Shown here one piece after another: positions 33,576 to 64,000 of a stretch of 64,000 nucleotides of DNA. The stretch covers positions 1,995,501 through 2,059,500 of the forward strand of contig NZ_CP013118.1 of NCBI RefSeq assembly GCF_001443605.1. The letters are read 5' to 3'. This DNA is from Salinivirga cyanobacteriivorans. GTDB lineage: Bacteria; Bacteroidota; Bacteroidia; Bacteroidales; Salinivirgaceae. The notes beneath the pieces are model-generated. The model made no database searches, was not told the origin of the DNA, and was given only the letters and a program-made list of their open reading frames with translations. Numbering within the stretch: position 1 is the first letter of the stretch; each line of letters begins with the position of its first letter. A program made the position numbers and the translations under genes.

Positions 33576-35852
33576 CTACTTCGGATGATAAAAATAAAAC
33601 GTAGTTCCCTCTCCAACTGTCGATTCTAAACTCAAGCGCCCTCCCAGCAATTCGGCAAATCCTTTACAGATAGAAAGGCCTAAACCTGTTCCACTTTTCT
33701 TTTGATTGGTTTCCAGTTGCATGAAGCGCTCAAATATTTTGTCGTTTTCATTTTTGGGAATACCGAAACCAGTATCCTTGACAAAAAACATAACCTCATT
33801 TTCAAAAACCTCATAACCGAATTCTACAGTACCTTCAGCTGTAAACTTCAGTGCATTATTTATCAGGTTTGTGAGAATTTGCTGTATTTTGGTTTGGTCA
33901 GAATACAAAAAAAGATGCTCATCAGGAGTATGGGTAACAATACTAACCTTTGGATTTGAGTGAATACGTTGATGTACAGATTGCAAATCGGTTATCATCT
34001 CATTCAAATCAATTTCTTCTTTATATATTTTGGCCTGGCCTGCCTCAAGTTTTGATATATCTACAATATCTGAAATAATATGTAAAAGCTGCGTAGACTG
34101 ATGATTAACAATGTTGACATATTTTGCTTGCTTCTCTTTGCTTAGTGAAGGGTTTTTTAGCATTTGAGCAAAGTTCACGATTCCATTCATTGGTGTGCGT
34201 ATCTCATGACTCATATTTGCCAAAAAAGCTGATTTAAGCCGATCACTCTCTTCGGCCTGGTTTTTAGCATCGATAAGTTGCTGCTTATACCGCATTTCTT
34301 TCAACCGTGCGTTTAATAAGGGTGCTACATAATTACAAATAGAAACCAATATATTTAAATCATTCTCACTATACCTGTCTGAATTCCTTGCAACTGCTAT
34401 CTGCCCTATCACTGAGTCATGATCGTTACTAATGGTCGAAACAATTACATTCTCAAATTTAATGTGGGTGGATGGAAAAGCAAGATTTCCATTTTTCATG
34501 ACAGCCTTATTTTGTTGTAAGGATTCTCCCCATACACCCTTCCAATTTTCTTTTTTGAATACCATTAAATCGCTTTTGATCTTGTCGCCGGTCCAAACAG
34601 AATTCGTTATGGCAGGACATGCCAGATCACCATTTTTATCAATATAGCCGAAGAAGCCATATTTACTTGCAAGCTGGTTCATTACAATTGATAAAACCTG
34701 CTGATAAAAGCGATTGTCATTAAAGCGTAAAAAGGCGTTTGAAATACTGGTTCTTAATTCTAATTGCGCATTGGTTTGGCGGAGTTCTCTTTGCGCTTTC
34801 TTTGTTTGCGTCATATCACGTACAATGGCGAGTGTTGTATCTTGAGAAAGAGGGACCATACGAGTTTCATAAATATGCATTTCTCCTTTCAAATCCATTG
34901 TATATTCGTATTCCTGAACTCCGTTCTTTAAGGTTTCGTCTATTTTTTCCTGTGTTAGCCTGGCTAAAAAGTCGGGTAAAGTTTTATAAATAGATTGGTT
35001 TATAAACTCTTTTGGTTTTTTGTATAATTCTTTGTCTGCTGCGTTATAGTCCAGAATTATTCCGTTTTTATTGAAGACAAACATCAAATCTGGAATAGCA
35101 TCTAATAAACTTTTAACTTTGCGTTCATTTTGAATAGCATCGTCCTTTGCCTTTAGAAGCTGTTCCTGGGTTTGTTCATACTGCGTAAAATCTTCCACAA
35201 TAACCTGTGCAATAGTAGGATTAGAACCAGAAAAGAACACCGGAGTGATAGTATATTTTAATGAGAGGCTAATTCCCCAGATTGATTGGTATTTTTTTAC
35301 ATTGGCAATTGTTTTTCCGGTTTTTATGCCTTCGCCTAAATCGTGGGCTATACCTGATTCCACGAGGGCGGGAAGGGAAAAAACATTTAATTTCTTTGTA
35401 GCCTCTATGCTCGGCGAACCCAGTATTTCTATCAATTTATTATTCACATCTAAAACCTGACCCTGGGTATTATAGGTCATTACGCCTATAGGTGAGTTCT
35501 TAAAAAGTAACTGATACTTTTCCTGTTCAATTTGCAGTTCCCGAACTTTCAAATTCTTATTGGCAACATTCTCCAAAATAACACCAAGCATTTGTGTGGC
35601 GTTTTTAAATATGGCTTGCTCTGTACTATTTAGCTTGCCTTTTATTATTTTAATCCCTCCAAATGCACTGTTTTTTGTACAAACCTCATAATCACCGGCA
35701 TCGTTACTATCTTCACCAGTCCATAAAAACTCAAAATCAGGGAATAGCCCTGACACACCTTCAAGAAAGAGCTGCTTTATCCTATCCGAATTGTGTAATT
35801 GACTCAAATTGGCGGTAAGTAAAAGCAAGTTATGCGCAAAATTCTCCATCAA
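33576..35852 (-). CDS. Sensor histidine kinase with PAS and GAF domains
   Basis: This 758-residue soluble histidine kinase has no clear transmembrane segment. Order: N-terminal helical/GAF-like region (1-100), PAS (~105-230), PAS (~250-365), GAF-like (~375-530), HisKA dimerisation domain with phospho-accepting His in FLANMSHEIRTPMNG (~555), and HATPase. The HATPase has N-box NLINNALKF, G1 DTGFGIP, F-box IFERF and G2 GTGLGLSI. There is no receiver domain, so the response regulator must be encoded elsewhere. It lies 1 nt downstream of the MEDS-domain gene, which points to one signalling unit sensing a cytoplasmic small molecule or redox/light cue through PAS/GAF. Confidence 0.92.
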   Translation of the reverse strand: MMENFAHNLLLLTANLSQLHNSDRIKQLFLEGVSGLFPDFEFLWTGEDSNDAGDYEVCTKNSAFGGIKIIKGKLNSTEQAIFKNATQMLGVILENVANKNLKVRELQIEQEKYQLLFKNSPIGVMTYNTQGQVLDVNNKLIEILGSPSIEATKKLNVFSLPALVESGIAHDLGEGIKTGKTIANVKKYQSIWGISLSLKYTITPVFFSGSNPTIAQVIVEDFTQYEQTQEQLLKAKDDAIQNERKVKSLLDAIPDLMFVFNKNGIILDYNAADKELYKKPKEFINQSIYKTLPDFLARLTQEKIDETLKNGVQEYEYTMDLKGEMHIYETRMVPLSQDTTLAIVRDMTQTKKAQRELRQTNAQLELRTSISNAFLRFNDNRFYQQVLSIVMNQLASKYGFFGYIDKNGDLACPAITNSVWTGDKIKSDLMVFKKENWKGVWGESLQQNKAVMKNGNLAFPSTHIKFENVIVSTISNDHDSVIGQIAVARNSDRYSENDLNILVSICNYVAPLLNARLKEMRYKQQLIDAKNQAEESDRLKSAFLANMSHEIRTPMNGIVNFAQMLKNPSLSKEKQAKYVNIVNHQSTQLLHIISDIVDISKLEAGQAKIYKEEIDLNEMITDLQSVHQRIHSNPKVSIVTHTPDEHLFLYSDQTKIQQILTNLINNALKFTAEGTVEFGYEVFENEVMFFVKDTGFGIPKNENDKIFERFMQLETNQKKSGTGLGLSICKGFAELLGGRLSLESTVGEGTTFYFYHPK

Positions 35853-46885: not shown

Positions 46886-48274
46886 ATGAGACGAATAATC
46901 ATTTTCTTATCAACCGCCATTTTCTTATTCACAATGGCATGCAGTAACGAACAGACAAAAGATGAGGCACAAAAGCTTATAGATAAGCAGACAAAAGCCC
47001 TTGAAAAGGAACAGGAATCAGTAGAACAGGTTTTTGATAAACTGGATAAAGCCAGGGATTCACTTACACAAGAACAACAAAGGCTTAAAAGCACAAAAGC
47101 AACTGTAGAAAAAAATGTAAATGAACTTGAACAGGAGCAAAAAGAGTTCGCAAAAAGCTTAAAGCAAGAGGAAAAATCGACGCTTGAGAAGAAAAGAAGC
47201 GAACTTGAAAAACGCCTGACAGAGCTTGAAGACAGCATAAAAACAGTAGAAGAAGAACTTGGCAGCCTTGATGAAAAGACTGACACTCTTTCAATGCAGG
47301 AAAAACAGTTAAAAGACCAGCAAAAGCAGGCAAAAGCAAAGCTCGTTACGGGTATTGAGAAAATTGATGAAAGGCTCGTTGAAATTGAGAATCAGCGCAA
47401 GATAAAACAGAAAGAGATTGAAATAAACAAACAGAAACAGAAACTGGCACAACAAAAGATTGATTTACTCAAAGATGAAAAAAGTGTTTACCTGAGAGAA
47501 AAAAACGAAGTACTTTCAAGCGACGGAGATGATGCAGAACTCGAAAAGTATAATCTCAAAATTAAAGACATTGAAAGTAAGATAAATGATGAAGAGAGCA
47601 AAGCACTGGTTGCTGAGAAACGCATATCGAGTTTAAAAAAATGGATGGAGGATGTAGAAGAACTTCAAACAAGGCTGAGTACGATGATGGAGGAAGAGTA
47701 CAGCGAAAATGAAATCATTAATGAATTCACCAATAAAGAAACACAAAGGCTCAAACAAGAGCAAACGAACATTGAGGAGGAAATGAAGTCCCTCAAACAA
47801 ATGAAAACCGACCTGGCAGACAAGAAAAAAGCTGTAGATGAGCAACTATCAAATGTAGACGAACAAATTGAACTTGTAAAAAGTCAGGAATTGTTTGAAA
47901 TTCTGGCCAGAAAGTCGGCCATTGAAGAACAGGCAGCCCAGCTTTCGAGCGAAGAGCAGCAACTACATAAAAAACAAAAAGTCACGACTCCCGTGCCAAA
48001 AGTTGACACAACGGTAGAGGGAACAGATTTACTAAAAAGCATTGAAGAAGACATTAATGCCAAGCGTAAAAACATTGAGAACCTGAAAAATGAAATTGCA
48101 TTAGAACGGCAAAAGCTGGCTGAAAAGCAAGCAAAAATTGAGGAAAGACGTTCAGAAAACGTAAAAAAAGCAGCCAAAACCACGGCTATTATCATAATTG
48201 CAGGCCTTATAGTTGTAGTGCTCCTTTACCTTATTGGACGTAATGCAGCAAGAAAAAAGAAAGCAAAAAAATAA
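46886..48274 (+). CDS. Long coiled-coil lipoprotein with C-terminal transmembrane helix
   Basis: This 462-residue protein begins with a lipoprotein signal (lipobox TMAC, Cys19). About 390 residues of near-continuous heptad-rich, Lys/Glu/Gln-dominated coiled coil follow (~25-430). A hydrophobic helix at ~436-455 (AIIIIAGLIVVVLLYLI) and a short basic tail RKKKAKK end the chain. The basic tail predicts that its C-terminus is cytoplasmic, so the chain would be acylated at one end and membrane-spanning at the other. No enzymatic motif. It is the first of three co-directional genes whose products are all helical or membrane-associated. Envelope spacer or tether is my inference. Confidence 0.75.
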   Translation: MRRIIIFLSTAIFLFTMACSNEQTKDEAQKLIDKQTKALEKEQESVEQVFDKLDKARDSLTQEQQRLKSTKATVEKNVNELEQEQKEFAKSLKQEEKSTLEKKRSELEKRLTELEDSIKTVEEELGSLDEKTDTLSMQEKQLKDQQKQAKAKLVTGIEKIDERLVEIENQRKIKQKEIEINKQKQKLAQQKIDLLKDEKSVYLREKNEVLSSDGDDAELEKYNLKIKDIESKINDEESKALVAEKRISSLKKWMEDVEELQTRLSTMMEEEYSENEIINEFTNKETQRLKQEQTNIEEEMKSLKQMKTDLADKKKAVDEQLSNVDEQIELVKSQELFEILARKSAIEEQAAQLSSEEQQLHKKQKVTTPVPKVDTTVEGTDLLKSIEEDINAKRKNIENLKNEIALERQKLAEKQAKIEERRSENVKKAAKTTAIIIIAGLIVVVLLYLIGRNAARKKKAKK

Positions 48275-48322
48275 TTCAGGGAAACGTCGAATAGATTTTC
48301 TAACCATAAAAATCAAATAATT

Positions 48323-48850
48323 ATGACAACAAAGAAAGAACAAGATAAAGCCAAAGAAACTGAAGAAAAAAAAGCAAAAAGCACACAGAATAATGAGCAA
48401 AAAAACACCCAGGAAACAGCAGACACCGGATTCTGGGATGAAGCCAAAGACAATGTTTCTGAGGGGGCCAAAATTGTTGGTGAGGAAGCCAAAAGAATAG
48501 GTGGAAAAATTTCATCATACTCGGAAAAAATTTTTGGTAAAATATCGGAATCGGCTTCAGATGTATATAAAATCAGCTCAGAGTTTACGAAAGATGCGGT
48601 AAACTCAGCCCAGGAACTGGCAGAGAAATACAAAGACAAATATGAAATCAATAAGCTCAATAACCAGAAGAAGCATTACGCCACACAATTGGGCATGAGG
48701 TTTTACCTTGACATAAAAAACAATGATAACCGCATCCCGAGAGGCTTCCTTGATGAGAACGACATTAAAGGACTGATCAGCAAACTCGAAAAAATTGATC
48801 AGGAAGTTTTGGAGATCACTAAAGATGAAGAAAAGAAATCAAACTCATAA
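48323..48850 (+). CDS. Hydrophilic helical protein of unknown function
   Basis: This 175-residue protein has no signal peptide. A charged, low-complexity N-terminus (residues 1-32, Lys/Glu/Gln/Thr-rich) precedes amphipathic helices with an 11-residue-like periodicity (DEAKDNVSEGAKIVGEEAKRI, shown here as separate blocks), reminiscent of LEA/apolipoprotein-type membrane-binding helices. A more globular C-terminal part follows (MRFYLDIKNNDNRIPRGFLDE). No family recognised. It lies 48 nt downstream of the coiled-coil lipoprotein and 30 nt upstream of the membrane protein, presumably in one operon. Confidence 0.7.
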   Translation: MTTKKEQDKAKETEEKKAKSTQNNEQKNTQETADTGFWDEAKDNVSEGAKIVGEEAKRIGGKISSYSEKIFGKISESASDVYKISSEFTKDAVNSAQELAEKYKDKYEINKLNNQKKHYATQLGMRFYLDIKNNDNRIPRGFLDENDIKGLISKLEKIDQEVLEITKDEEKKSNS

Positions 48851-48880
48851 TGACTAAAACAAATATTAAATGATCTTTTT

Positions 48881-49339
48881 ATGAAAAATAATCAGCATAA
48901 AATCATTATCGATGTTTTACTGGTAATTTGGACTTTTCTCTGGGTGTATTACATGGCATTTAACTGGGCCATATTTAGCATAGAATTAAAAGTCAACCTT
49001 GGTTTCGCTGTTATTTCAGGCTACCCCTTTGTATTTTTCTTTATACTCGGATTGCTGACTTTAATTATTATCAAATACAGTTACCACTTCGCAGCAATAA
49101 AGCTATCCAGTAAAGAAAAAGAGGAGCATAATCAAAAAAGCTTACTGGAAAAAGATATCGAGATTCTAAAACTCAAAGAAGTACTCTTTAAAATGCAAAC
49201 CAAGGATATGAGCGAAAGTAGCACGGCTTTAAGTGCACTTCAGGAAAAACTGGACAACATTTCCAAACAAATATCCAGTGATGAGCAAACGAAAGAACCC
49301 CCTGAAAAAAGCCAGGGCGAAAATAAAGAACAAAAATAG
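48881..49339 (+). CDS. Small membrane protein with C-terminal coiled coil
   Basis: This 152-residue protein has two transmembrane helices (~9-31 and ~47-70). A cytoplasmic, charged coiled-coil tail follows (~78-135) and then an unstructured Glu/Lys/Gln-rich end. No catalytic motif or known family. It is the third gene of the cluster with the coiled-coil lipoprotein, and is followed by a terminator, so the cluster is probably a complete transcription unit. Confidence 0.7.
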   Translation: MKNNQHKIIIDVLLVIWTFLWVYYMAFNWAIFSIELKVNLGFAVISGYPFVFFFILGLLTLIIIKYSYHFAAIKLSSKEKEEHNQKSLLEKDIEILKLKEVLFKMQTKDMSESSTALSALQEKLDNISKQISSDEQTKEPPEKSQGENKEQK

Positions 49340-49359
49340 TAAAGCCCCACAATCAAATA

Positions 49360-49397
49360 AAAATAAGCTGGCGATTGACTCGTCAGCTTATTTTTTT
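49360..49397 (+). terminator. Terminator of the coiled-coil cluster
   Basis: AAATAAGCTG-GC pairs with GT-CAGCTTATTT around a ~9-nt loop and ends in a T-run, about 25 nt after the last stop codon. Confidence 0.82.
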
Positions 49398-52071: not shown

Positions 52072-53562
52072 TTACTCCACCAACCTGGTAAAATCAGCTT
52101 CAATTTTCTGTTTACGCTTAAAATTATATAAAGTATAACCACGTATGCGGTAATAGTTTTGCCAAAAGTCCCGCAAAGCAGCAATATAATCTCTTCGCGA
52201 AACATCCTTTTCCTGTAGTGCCACGTTTAAATCTAAAATACTCACCTTGCCCACTTTAAACCGCTGTTTGGTAATATTATAACGAATCTGGGCTATGGTA
52301 TCTGATTTAGCAGCAATTAAAAGTTGCTCATCCTGCATATTGAACCGGGCAACCTCCAAATAAACTTCCTGATCAAAATCGACCTGCTCCTGTTCTATAT
52401 TGACAAGACTGAGCTCTCGTTGCGACTTAGCCATTTCATAACGACCTTTCCCTACCCCCCAGTCGAGTATAGGAATAGAAACCCCTACAGAAACCATTTG
52501 TGAATTTTCAAGATTATTAAAAGCATTATCGAGCCCTTCGCTAAACTTATTCAACCCGAGTGTGGCATTTAAATTGGCATTAAATAAATTTTCGGCCCTG
52601 GCCTCAGCCACATCTCTGTTCGCCTCAATACGTTGTCGCTTTAGCGAAAGCATTTTGGGATGTTGCTCGTGGGCGTAATGCAACGCAGTGTCTACATTTA
52701 TCTTGAATTTTGGAATTTCGGAAGGAATAACCAGGCTCAGCGATTTTTCATCGGTAAGGCCTAAAAAAGATTTTAAATTAAATCGTGCTACACGTAAATT
52801 CAAATCAGCTTCATTAAATGCTTTGCGGGAAGTAAGGTAACTAAGCTCCATCTGTAAAAGCTCATCTTTTGCAATGGTACCCATATTGTATCTTCCCTCG
52901 GCAATTTTATAAAGCGTATCGTTATTGTGAAAGTTAGTTTCGCTAATTTCTTTATTGATTTGAGCCAGTGCCAAATCGAAAAAATAGCTTATGGCCATGC
53001 GGGAAATCTCTTCAAGCGTAAGTAAATAATTACGTTCAGCCTCCTTATATTTTAAAGGTTCAATTTTACGTTCCCAACGATAGGCGTTATATGTAACGAG
53101 TGGTTGCCGGTAACCAATTCGAATCGGAGCAATAAGATAGGTAGTGGTTTTATTGCCGGTTAGCAATTGCACCCGCTCCAGTGAAGAACTCAGATAAAGG
53201 TTCCCGCCTGTTGGGGCAACGCGTTGTGAAATCTCCAAAGATCCGCTATTGGTCATTGAACGGCGTTCCACGAACTGATCGCTACCGTCATCAATAGTGA
53301 TGGATTCGTAAGAACGGTTCAAATCGAAAGGTGTACTGTTTAGTGTGAGCGAGGGCAGATAATTTGCTTTATAAGAACGAAAACTCCAGTAAGAAGCTCT
53401 GAAAGTATGGCGGGCCATAATGGCTCGTGGCGATTTATGCACAGCCATATCAATCACCTCATTGAGTGAAAGTAACCGTTCGTCGTTATCCTGTGCCATA
53501 CTTTGCACGCTTCCAAAAAATATAATAAAAATGCTTATTCCTATTCGCTGTATAGTATTCAT
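52072..53562 (-). CDS. TolC family outer-membrane efflux protein
   Basis: This 496-residue protein begins MNTIQRIGISIFIIFFGSVQSMAQ, a signal peptide. I therefore place the start at 53562; the longer frame to 53679 runs into the permease gene. Two TolC/OEP repeats are visible: an LLSLNEVIDMAVHKSPRAI start, an internal second repeat near LHYAHEQHPKMLSLK, and long alpha-helical stretches with conserved ILDLNVALQEKD. It forms the outer-membrane channel of the tripartite exporter encoded by the two genes upstream on the same strand. The gap to the permease is 2 nt. Confidence 0.92.
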   Translation of the reverse strand: MNTIQRIGISIFIIFFGSVQSMAQDNDERLLSLNEVIDMAVHKSPRAIMARHTFRASYWSFRSYKANYLPSLTLNSTPFDLNRSYESITIDDGSDQFVERRSMTNSGSLEISQRVAPTGGNLYLSSSLERVQLLTGNKTTTYLIAPIRIGYRQPLVTYNAYRWERKIEPLKYKEAERNYLLTLEEISRMAISYFFDLALAQINKEISETNFHNNDTLYKIAEGRYNMGTIAKDELLQMELSYLTSRKAFNEADLNLRVARFNLKSFLGLTDEKSLSLVIPSEIPKFKINVDTALHYAHEQHPKMLSLKRQRIEANRDVAEARAENLFNANLNATLGLNKFSEGLDNAFNNLENSQMVSVGVSIPILDWGVGKGRYEMAKSQRELSLVNIEQEQVDFDQEVYLEVARFNMQDEQLLIAAKSDTIAQIRYNITKQRFKVGKVSILDLNVALQEKDVSRRDYIAALRDFWQNYYRIRGYTLYNFKRKQKIEADFTRLVE

Positions 53563-53564
53563 GT

Positions 53565-54881
53565 TTATTCGCTTCTGAGTGAAACAATCGGGTCCTGGGT
53601 AGCAGCTTTTCGTGCCGGCATATAGCCAAAAATAATACCGATGGCCACTGATATTCCAAAAGATATAATTACCGACCATACCGAAACTATGGTTATGATA
53701 CCGGTGACAGTGGTTACAAAATGTGATGAAATAATCCCCAGCATCACACCAATAATACCGCCACTAAAACTTATAAGGGCTGCTTCGGCCACAAACTGTG
53801 TTAAAATATCCTTTTTTCGGGCACCTACCGCCATACGTATGCCTATCTCCTTGAAACGCTCCATTACGGTAGCCAGCATAATATTCATAATACCTATTCC
53901 CCCTACCAACAAAGATATGCCGGCAATGGCTCCAAGCACGAGGTTAAAAATATCACGTGTTTTTTGCTGTTGTTGCAGTAAAAGTTCGGGTACAATTATT
54001 TCAAAATCGTCCACATCGTTGTGCAAGCGCTTAAGCATCTTTGCCAGCACAGCACGTGTTGGTTGCAGGTTTTCGCTTTTATTTACCTGCACAATAACTT
54101 TATCAAGCTGGTTATAGTTTTTCTTTTCTGCAGCAGAGGTATTCTCCTCCTCATCTTCATCGGCCTCAAGTTGGCTTTTGGTCACTAAAGAACGGTTTAC
54201 ATATCGCAACAACATTGTTTGAACTGGCACATACACTACCTGATTGTCGCGCACAAGACCAAGTTCTCCGCTACTTTCATCTAGCACAGGTTTTTCTACA
54301 ACACCGACTACCCTTAACCATATATCACCACACTTAATCTCTTTACCAATGGGACTTTGGTTATTGAAAATAGAAACTTTTATTTGATCTGTTACAATAC
54401 AAACTGGCTGACCATATTCAACCTGGTGTGCATTAAAAAAACTGCCTTCAGAAAGCTCTTTATTAAAAAGGGTAAAGTAGTTATTGGCAGTACCGATAAC
54501 TTTCACACGCGAAGATTTACCCTGTCTGATGAGGGTTTTATTTTGAATAACCTGTGGGCAAACCTGCTCTACAGAGGGTAAAACCTGCCTTATACTTTTA
54601 ACATCTTTTAATGCCAAGCCGGGGGAAAATCTTTTTACCTGCGACTGATCATCTTCTTCCTGCTCCTCGTTACTTTCAATAATCGGCTGGATGATAATAT
54701 TATTGACACCCACCATTTTCATTTGGTTCAATATTTCCTGGCGGGCCCCATTGCCAATAGCCAACATGGTAATAACAGCGGCAACGCCAAAAATTATACC
54801 CAATGCTGTTAGTATTGTTTTGACCTTATTGGCCAGAATAGCTTCAAGTGCAATGGTTATGTCGAGCAAAAATCGGTTCAT
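53565..54881 (-). CDS. ABC exporter permease, MacB/FtsX-like core
   Basis: This 438-residue inner-membrane protein has TM1 at ~18-40, a large periplasmic MacB_PCD-type domain (~45-290) and three C-terminal TM helices in FtsX topology. The C-terminal region has the conserved GGIGIMNIMLATVMER-F-KEIGIRMAVGA (two blocks) and PARKAATQDPI motifs. Unlike MacB of Escherichia it lacks the N-terminal ATPase domain. It lies between a MacA-like adaptor and a TolC protein, so the three form a mechanotransmission-type exporter. The ATPase (LolD/MacB-N type) is not in this operon within the window. Confidence 0.9.
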   Translation of the reverse strand: MNRFLLDITIALEAILANKVKTILTALGIIFGVAAVITMLAIGNGARQEILNQMKMVGVNNIIIQPIIESNEEQEEDDQSQVKRFSPGLALKDVKSIRQVLPSVEQVCPQVIQNKTLIRQGKSSRVKVIGTANNYFTLFNKELSEGSFFNAHQVEYGQPVCIVTDQIKVSIFNNQSPIGKEIKCGDIWLRVVGVVEKPVLDESSGELGLVRDNQVVYVPVQTMLLRYVNRSLVTKSQLEADEDEEENTSAAEKKNYNQLDKVIVQVNKSENLQPTRAVLAKMLKRLHNDVDDFEIIVPELLLQQQQKTRDIFNLVLGAIAGISLLVGGIGIMNIMLATVMERFKEIGIRMAVGARKKDILTQFVAEAALISFSGGIIGVMLGIISSHFVTTVTGIITIVSVWSVIISFGISVAIGIIFGYMPARKAATQDPIVSLRSE

Positions 54882-54884
54882 ACA

Positions 54885-56102
54885 CTATTCTTCTGGCAAG
54901 TTTAGGGTTACCTCATCGTTTTCATTCAGGCCGTCTTCCACAATGATAAAATTATCATTGGCCTTACCTGTAGTAACCTTTGTTTTATTAAGACCAACAG
55001 CAGCCTTTTTATACACAAACCGGGCAGAATCTGTTACCCTGAGGGCCTCAAGCGGCACGCTAAGCACAGAATCGAAATGAGATACCATAATACGGTTGCT
55101 GGTTGTCATGCCGGGTTTAAGTACCGAATCGGTTTCACTTAAACGAATGATCACCTCAAACACCTTGGCATCGGAACCTGGTCTTTGCTCGCCTACATTA
55201 GCCACATCTATAATTTCAGCGGCAAATTGCTTATCGGGAAATGCATCTACCCCTACCTCAACCTGTTGGCCTTTTGATATTTTACTTATATCGACCTCAT
55301 TGATATAAGCGCGCGAAATCATTGAAGACATATCGGGCAATGTTGCCACAATGGGATTCCATGGACTAATGGAGGATCCTACTTTACGTTTTGTTCCATT
55401 CCAGCTTCGCTGATAGATAACCATGCCACCTTTTGGTGCTTTTACATCGAACCTTCCCATTAAGTCGAGCATTTCCTGCATCTTGCGCTGGGTTTTAGCC
55501 AAATCGGCCTCTACTTCGCGCATTTTTGCAACGGCTTTATCTCTTTTAATTTTATAATTCTCCACAGCCTGTTCATAACGCCTTTTGGCTTTATCCAAAT
55601 TAATCTCGGCCTGCCGTATTGTAGCCGGAGGCTCAAACTTCGATTGCTCCAGCTTTATTCTATTCTCTTCGAGGACATATTTAAGATTGATAAGCTCATC
55701 GCGCGTTTGCCGCATCTCAAGGGTAGTATCGAGCTTGGTTTGCAGATACTGATTTTTCTTGGTCTGAATTTCGGTTTCAATATCCTTGAGTTTTTTCGAA
55801 AGCTCCGATTTATCAAGCGATGCCACAAAGTCTCCTGAATCTACAATGGTACCTTCAGGCACAAGATCTGTAATCTTAATCCGGTATAAACCGCTTCTTT
55901 GCAAGCCGGCCGGGCCTCTTATGTCCATGCTGTTTTCGGCCTGAAGCTCTCCTGTAGTGGTTACAACAACATCAAAATCACCGTATTGAACTTTATGATA
56001 AAGTTGTGTAGTTTTTGTTTTGTCGGAAGATCCAAAAGCAATCCAGACAATGATGAGCAATACCAGCAGTGCACCGCCCCAAATGAGGCCTTTTTTCTTC
56101 AT
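54885..56102 (-). CDS. Periplasmic adaptor (membrane fusion) protein, MacA/HlyD family
   Basis: This 405-residue protein has an N-terminal membrane anchor (~5-22, LIWGGALLVLLIIVWIAFG), a lipoyl-like half-motif before a long alpha-hairpin (~90-215) and a beta-barrel region (~230-330: GMVIYQRSWNG, ISKGQQVEVGVDAFP). The C-terminal membrane-proximal domain ends at ~405. It links the inner-membrane permease to TolC. It is the first gene of the adaptor-permease-TolC operon; the spacing to the permease gene is 3 nt. Confidence 0.9.
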   Translation of the reverse strand: MKKKGLIWGGALLVLLIIVWIAFGSSDKTKTTQLYHKVQYGDFDVVVTTTGELQAENSMDIRGPAGLQRSGLYRIKITDLVPEGTIVDSGDFVASLDKSELSKKLKDIETEIQTKKNQYLQTKLDTTLEMRQTRDELINLKYVLEENRIKLEQSKFEPPATIRQAEINLDKAKRRYEQAVENYKIKRDKAVAKMREVEADLAKTQRKMQEMLDLMGRFDVKAPKGGMVIYQRSWNGTKRKVGSSISPWNPIVATLPDMSSMISRAYINEVDISKISKGQQVEVGVDAFPDKQFAAEIIDVANVGEQRPGSDAKVFEVIIRLSETDSVLKPGMTTSNRIMVSHFDSVLSVPLEALRVTDSARFVYKKAAVGLNKTKVTTGKANDNFIIVEDGLNENDEVTLNLPEE

Positions 56103-63320: not shown

Positions 63321-64000
63321 TGGGATTTAATCTTTGTAGCGTAAACAATTTTCTTATGACTTAACCGCTCATTATTATCTATGATAATTGTATCACCAAC
63401 CTTTAACCCATTTTTTATAAGATACTCATCTGTATTTTCATTGCCAATTTCCACATAATTCCAAATGGCAACTGAATCATTCTTAAGCGTAAAGACTACA
63501 TGCTTTTTTTGTCTTTTGAGTACAGCTTTTTTAGGAATTGTAATTTGTTTTCCTTTATTAATTGTGATTTTAACTTTTACATTCATACCAGCTAATAAAC
63601 CCTTGTCAGAGTTGTTTACAATCCCATACACATCAACAACTCCATTGACATCAACCCTGGGGTTTATATGATCTATTGTGCCCTGATAGGTATCTCCGGA
63701 AACTGTTTCAATAATAATACCCTGCCCAAGATTTACAATATCAATTTCGCTTTCAATGATTTTAAATTTCACAATAAAGTTTTTATTATCAATAAGCGTG
63801 CATAGCGGACTACCTGCATCTATTTTTTCATATTGATTTGCCTCAAGGTCAGCTATTACACCAGCAAAAGGAGCTTTAATAATGGTTTTTTCAATGGCAT
63901 TTTTTGCTTCTGCCAGGGCTAGTTTTGCACTGGCAACACCAGATCGTATTTTAGCGACCTCCATTATCTCCTTAGGTATCTGGGTAGAATCGTCAACAGA
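63317..64000 (-). CDS. RND periplasmic adaptor (HlyD/MFP family), partial
   Basis: The frame stays open to the window edge, so only the C-terminal ~227 residues are seen. Visible features are the end of the alpha-hairpin (SAKLALAEAKNAIEKT), the lipoyl-domain strand IIKAPFAGVIADLE, the beta-barrel (IVNLGQGIIIETVSGD, ISP-like INPRVD) and the membrane-proximal domain (IPKKAVLKRQKKHVVF, GLKVGDTIII). The ATG at 63964 is internal, because homologous hairpin sequence continues upstream. It couples with the RND gene via a 4-nt overlap. Confidence 0.9.
   Translation of the reverse strand, partial: SVDDSTQIPKEIMEVAKIRSGVASAKLALAEAKNAIEKTIIKAPFAGVIADLEANQYEKIDAGSPLCTLIDNKNFIVKFKIIESEIDIVNLGQGIIIETVSGDTYQGTIDHINPRVDVNGVVDVYGIVNNSDKGLLAGMNVKVKITINKGKQITIPKKAVLKRQKKHVVFTLKNDSVAIWNYVEIGNENTDEYLIKNGLKVGDTIIIDNNERLSHKKIVYATKIKSQ

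Follow-up and report, generated by a model that had tools for sequence, protein, structure and literature searches.

A conserved three-gene module of Bacteroidota encodes a predicted helical-hairpin lipoprotein with a second, transmembrane anchor

The window is the whole stretch of DNA that we analysed, 64,000 nucleotides corresponding to positions 1,995,501-2,059,500 of a 4.81-Mb single-contig genome. It contains three genes, here called A, B and C, whose open reading frames lie on the plus strand exactly where the initial annotation had placed them and are separated by gaps of 48 nt (A-B) and 30 nt (B-C) (Table 1). Behind C we find a terminator-like hairpin with a U run (-20 kcal/mol, z -7.05), so A, B and C appear to form one unit, apart from the kinase gene downstream. 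The trio is preceded by a permease gene of OppC type (Pfam matches PF00528 and OppC_N) and followed by a sensor kinase (ABC_sub_bind, PAS, HisKA and HATPase_c) and then by a MacB/HlyD/OEP efflux group. Genome G001 likewise has an OppC-like gene before the trio and a kinase after it, as judged by eye. The OEP, MacB and HlyD-type genes of the efflux group, which adjoins the sensor kinase, occupy window positions 52072-56102 on the minus strand, and more large transporter-like open reading frames lie beside them, reaching position 63964. Elsewhere in the window, a MEDS-domain sensory protein (PF14417, 35854-36498) adjoins a large minus-strand open reading frame (33576-35852).

Table 1. Features of the A-B-C locus in window coordinates
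Feature	Position	Strand	Basis
Gene A: predicted lipoprotein, helical hairpin, TM helix, basic tail; 462 aa	46886..48274	+	Sequence, model, homologues in 10 further intact-trio genomes
A, predicted signal peptide and lipobox FTMAC; Cys19 codon 46940-46942	46886..46942	+	Sequence; lipobox Cys in 11/11
A, N leg, residues 22-211, single helix in model	46949..47518	+	AlphaFold model
A, hairpin tip, residues 212-215, conserved loop	47519..47530	+	Model, homologues
A, C leg, residues 216-363, helix	47531..47974	+	AlphaFold model
A, linker, residues 364-379, Thr/Pro/Val rich	47975..48022	+	Model; pLDDT under 50 at 360-381
A, membrane-proximal helix, residues 380-432, lower confidence	48023..48181	+	AlphaFold model
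A, TM helix, residues 433-451, ending Y-x-x-G-R	48182..48238	+	Hydropathy, homologues
A, basic tail RNAARKKKAKK, predicted cytoplasmic	48239..48271	+	Sequence
Gene B: soluble protein; low-confidence N-terminus, amphipathic helix 33-72, helices 78-135 and 145-174; 175 aa	48323..48850	+	Sequence, model
Gene C: 2-TM protein, predicted cytoplasmic coiled-coil tail, LapA-like in topology only; 152 aa	48881..49339	+	Sequence
Intrinsic-terminator-like stem-loop with U run, closing the A-B-C unit	49359..49395	+	Folding energy

Gene A codes for a protein with an anchor signal at either end, as the initial annotation had described. The first 19 residues make up a short hydrophobic signal that terminates in FTMAC, with Cys19 as the candidate lipidation site; a TM helix at residues 433-451 (Kyte-Doolittle mean 2.93) is followed by the basic tail RNAARKKKAKK. 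Both the N-terminal lipobox and the C-terminal TM are present in 11/11 A homologues, where the TM ends Y-x-x-G-[RK] before a basic tail. This motif-bearing TM and the candidate lipidation cysteine are the invariant parts of A, which is predicted to carry a signal peptide II with a conserved cysteine. The lipobox cysteine, located at residue 17-29, is the sole cysteine of A in all 11 homologues, leaving no periplasmic cysteine, and the residue before it is always Ala, Gly or Ser. This pattern argues against A being an ordinary inner-membrane protein with a non-acylated cysteine, a signal cut by signal peptidase I or uncut, and a coil that acts as a plain periplasmic scaffold. Such a protein would accommodate the relaxed lipobox of the window protein, whose -3 residue is Thr and lies outside the classical [LVI] consensus, but we consider it improbable.

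Sequence families give little guidance for the three proteins. Pfam and NCBIfam return no match above the curated cut-off for A, B or C of the window, and PADLOC and PHROGs return nothing past apparent coiled-coil cross-talk. We rejected a defence or SMC-like identity for A, as its hits in PADLOC, NCBIfam and Pfam resemble cross-matches between coiled coils and fall far under the cut-off where one is given. TIGR04211 weakly matches A over residues 338-452 (21.0 bits, cut-off 65).

A, B and C are adjacent, in the same order and on the same strand, in 11 genomes (G000, G001, G194, G523, G994, G932, G852, G1127, G912, G756 and G1109), comprising 2 of Salinivirgaceae type, 7 others of the same order and 2 of another order. 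The trio is a real, rare and conserved module, in keeping with the neighbourhood conservation that the initial annotation had suggested looking for. Identity of the A homologues to the window protein drops to 24-27%, so that further homologues were likely missed in our searches. A first search of 41 genomes returned true homologues of each gene in just one genome apart from that of the window, G001; a match for A in G002 (L011) was spurious, being a different type of lipoprotein with 146 aa. Profile searches of 296 genomes of the phylum located G194, and a two-row profile of B, run against 296 genomes, recovered the window's own genome only. G194 was the only match among 149 genomes of its family, and 3 of 199 genomes matched in its genus (g43), which we tentatively take to be Flavobacterium-type. 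In the order of the window 9 of 393 genomes matched, 2 of them spuriously (G687 and G903; L042, L043), with no trio at these loci. Four of 385 genomes matched across the phylum, two of them new (G277 and G1087, left out of the trio count, with matches in 849- and 715-aa frames), as did 7 of the 28 genomes from the G852 family (4/4 in genus g440, 2/18 in genus g9). The distribution of the trio in Bacteroidota is patchy. G622 contains broken frames of all three genes near a contig end (L024, 5182-6577), which could reflect decay or an assembly error. A LapA-like protein in G142 (L017, L026; 20 bits, below cut-off) was rejected, with no A or B in the 8 kb examined. We found no plasmid copies of B, and recognised no description of the trio in a literature search of titles and abstract openings.

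The 413 residues between the anchors of A are mostly helical, 43% of them charged, and show heptad-type local hydrophobic periodicity (0.923 versus 0.292, sd 0.064, above all 200 shuffles). This agrees with the coiled coil of ~390 residues proposed initially, but an AlphaFold model calculated from two sequences (mean pLDDT 74.9, pTM 0.38) places three helices (residues 22-211, 216-363 and 380-460) in the protein instead of one continuous coil. The block from residue 91 to 330 has pLDDT values of 80-97. Both sides of the helix break align, in VIA alignments, to solved antiparallel hairpins: the dynein stalk (8i3j; A 141-286, Z 12.3, rmsd 1.9, 142 aligned), a chemoreceptor (3g67; A 106-317, Z 12.5, rmsd 4.3) and EmrA (4tko; A 108-317, Z 11.2, rmsd 6.2), where Z-scores of such size between long helices say little about kinship. 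The alignments indicate that the modelled chain would form an antiparallel hairpin in space, with no kinship implied; a Foldseek search with the model returned no match at E under 0.001. The model break falls on a loop that is conserved in the 10 coil-bearing homologues (GADD, DGDD, GAAP and like), and the best-conserved 20-residue blocks of A, 181-200 and 201-220, are located at the tip.

Leg lengths bear on whether A bridges the two membranes or folds back, the two options between which the initial annotation had left the choice. The N and C legs comprise 195/219, 195/219, 197/213, 195/212, 195/213, 195/214, 192/217 and 192/217 residues in the eight homologues of the long form, and 126/134 and 129/133 residues in the short form (G194 and G523, Flavobacterium-type). 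The C leg is longer by just 4-25 residues in 10/11 homologues, and the short form is trimmed about alike on both legs. As a bridge predicts a leg difference of about the width of the periplasm, near-equal legs favour folding back, and together with the hairpin model and the symmetric shortening they tip the choice towards a fold-back that is, in part, predicted from the model. The distance from the cysteine to the tyrosine of Y-x-x-G is 426-429 residues in 8/11 homologues (CV 0.30%, with these eight equal-length proteins drawn from three genera); the lengths of B and C vary more in these genomes, with CVs of 6.28% and 2.79%, respectively. Starts were shortened by eye before lengths were counted for C of G994, G932 and G852, A of G756, G194 and G523, and B of G001 and G523. 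The constant length may come from a low tolerance of coiled coils to indels instead of a ruler. In G912, the A homologue (L047, 8655-9515) has lost the hairpin, leaving 246 residues from Cys to Tyr, and keeps the lipobox, the TM motif and the order LapA-A-B-C-DUF308. With both anchors and all neighbours retained, the hairpin is not essential everywhere, which counts against a strict ruler; this homologue is a natural experiment on the purpose of the hairpin.

The precedent that keeps a trans-envelope bridge alive is the phage u-spanin T1 gp11, from the one well-studied class of proteins that has the same anchor order, lipobox first and TM last, and is taken in PMC6139136 to bridge both membranes; periplasmic cysteines are absent from 58/58 u-spanins according to the same source, and from A. 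In such an arrangement Lol would send the lipid of A to the outer membrane, the TM would stay in the inner membrane, and the base of the hairpin would unzip at the linker. LolA and LolB are described for Bacteroidota in PMC11885536, and none of the lipoprotein surface-export signals given in PMC5080379 (C-X-K-(D/E)2, SDDDD, SDDFE) follows the cysteine in the 11 A lipobox strings. Furthermore, the trio of the two Flavobacterium-type genomes, G194 and G523, is flanked by an OmpA-type gene divergent before A (Pfam run on G194 only) and, directly after C, by a predicted outer-membrane barrel (L022 8907-10835; L023 8557-10365) that has no Pfam match and whose helical C-terminal tail is rich in Thr and Val. 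Against this, equal legs bring both termini of A to the same end of the rod, and the surplus of the C leg is small. By our arithmetic an unzipped base could supply ~190 Å of reach, so we regard a bridge as unlikely, if worth keeping in view. Doubtful, too, is a more elaborate form in which A spans both membranes as a host-encoded coiled-coil counterpart of u-spanins, its constant-length, collapsible hairpin setting or sensing membrane distance and reporting to B and C.

The product of gene B lacks both a TM helix (its 19-residue hydropathy peaks at 0.13) and an export signal. Its residues 37-108 are strongly amphipathic at an 11/3 angle (0.445 versus 0.150, sd 0.050, reached by 0/500 shuffles), so the term LEA-like used in the initial annotation is justified as far as the helix pattern goes. 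A model of B (two sequences, mean pLDDT 71.7) contains helices 33-72, 78-135 and 145-174; Foldseek with this model finds no PDB match under E 1 (best 1.1), and a B sequence profile matches just designed helical bundles (best 9.2e-05) and flagellins, without an informative relative. C has hydrophobic segments at ~8-26 and ~44-63 followed by a helical tail, matching its earlier description as a 2-TM coiled-coil protein, and the positive-inside rule predicts that its N-terminus and tail face the cytoplasm. We rejected C as a LapA family member and retain a topological likeness. PF06305 does not match C, nor is there a match at its place in a whole-genome scan, which returned no LapA above cut-off anywhere in the genome of the window; the G001 homologue scores 12.6 bits (curated cut-off 28 bits). 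Profile-profile comparison of C with the LapA genes that adjoin the trio elsewhere gives a probability of 3%, and of 44% on the coil stretch alone.

In 5 of the 11 genomes (G994, G932, G852, G1127 and G912) A is directly preceded by a LapA_dom gene (41-56 bits, cut-off 28) and C directly followed by a DUF308/HdeD gene, and in G932 the trio and DUF308 gene are followed by MlaE, ABC ATPase and MlaD genes. A tblastn search of the 64-kb window with the G194 barrel, the G194 OmpA and the G932 LapA, HdeD, MlaE and MlaD proteins returned no match. At a further locus, in G1123 (L061, 4835-8439), neither A nor C adjoins B, and the genes that follow B are of the DUF308, MlaE, ABC-ATPase and MlaD types; this arrangement suggests that B is linked to phospholipid transport independently of A and C. 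This locus would fit three co-transcribed yet functionally separate general stress genes; we give that explanation a small chance, as order and strand are constant in 11 genomes from two orders, down to 24-28% identity. Neighbours also speak to the idea that A is a phage lysis gene (a u-spanin) copied into the host, or part of a prophage remnant, for which topology is the one point in favour. LapA, DUF308, Mla and OmpA genes surround the trio, and no holin or endolysin is seen among the neighbours at the opened loci (inspected by eye, with Pfam for part). When six proteins were scanned against PHROGs, no match went below E 0.0028, the matches being to unnamed, head or tail families, and A is a helical rather than β-rich protein of 286-469 aa. 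A phage origin is therefore very improbable.

We propose, with a probability of about one half, that A is a hairpin strut of the inner membrane, pinned there by lipid and TM, with its tip towards the outer membrane, and that B and C lie at its cytoplasmic face. The computed basis consists of gene conservation, anchor signals, the helix break in the model, leg lengths and neighbours, from which we infer acylation, the location of both anchors in one membrane, tip contact, partnership with B and C, and function. For two anchors on a closed hairpin, both in the inner membrane is the simplest arrangement. Sec would export A, Cys19 would be lipidated, and the C-terminal TM would halt export, leaving the basic tail in the cytoplasm. 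The 413 residues would fold as an antiparallel coiled-coil hairpin with both legs rising from the inner membrane, the lipid holding one leg and the TM the other, so that the rod is kept upright. With 195 residues at 1.5 Å each, its tip (around residue 214) would lie ~29 nm from the inner membrane, a reach sufficient for contact with the outer membrane or peptidoglycan. For the short form of the Flavobacterium-type genomes, OmpA or the adjacent barrel would be the expected contacts of the tip. C, as a 2-TM hairpin with a cytoplasmic coiled coil, and B, with its amphipathic helix, may partner the TM and tail of A from the cytoplasmic side. The conserved unit in 11 genomes makes a joint envelope role of A, B and C likely. 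The single envelope structure initially envisaged for all three is harder to reconcile with a periplasmic A rod, a B without export signal and a C tail predicted to be cytoplasmic, and any joint structure must connect across the inner membrane. Judged from neighbours alone, the most probable role of the module is an accessory one, in maintaining or spacing the envelope under stress.

To our knowledge, how Bacteroidota set the distance between their two membranes is little understood. Its two predicted anchors, together with a rod whose length stays constant to 0.3% across eight genomes as sequence identity falls to 25%, make A a good candidate spacer or distance sensor, and its natural long (~29 nm) and short (~19 nm) versions pose the question whether periplasm width tracks rod length. 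A link of the module to lipid and LPS homeostasis would follow from its recurrent neighbours LapA, DUF308/HdeD and Mla.

Comparison with known systems reveals partial likenesses for both membrane proteins of the module. LapA (YciS, PF06305) has two TM helices and a cytoplasmic coiled coil, as predicted for C, which is set apart by the missing PF06305 match. SH3-coiled-coil-TM proteins (TIGR04211, such as YgiM) share a coiled coil and a C-terminal TM with A, which has no SH3 domain and a predicted lipidated N-terminus. The u-spanin T1 gp11, as described in PMC6139136, resembles A in its N-terminal lipobox, C-terminal TM and lack of periplasmic cysteines. The periplasmic domain of u-spanins is mostly β, whereas A is a helical, predicted hairpin encoded on the chromosome outside a holin-endolysin lysis cassette. 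T1 gp11 is also smaller than A. Periplasmic adaptors (EmrA, HlyD, AcrA/MexA), of which AcrA/MexA are lipid-anchored, differ from A in their lipoyl and β-barrel domains: neither a lipoyl/barrel-sandwich domain (Pfam HlyD models) nor a strand in the model is found in A, whose unit contains no transporter gene and whose legs have ~200 residues each. What A would share with these adaptors, according to its model, is an inner-membrane-anchored α-hairpin that points towards the outer membrane.
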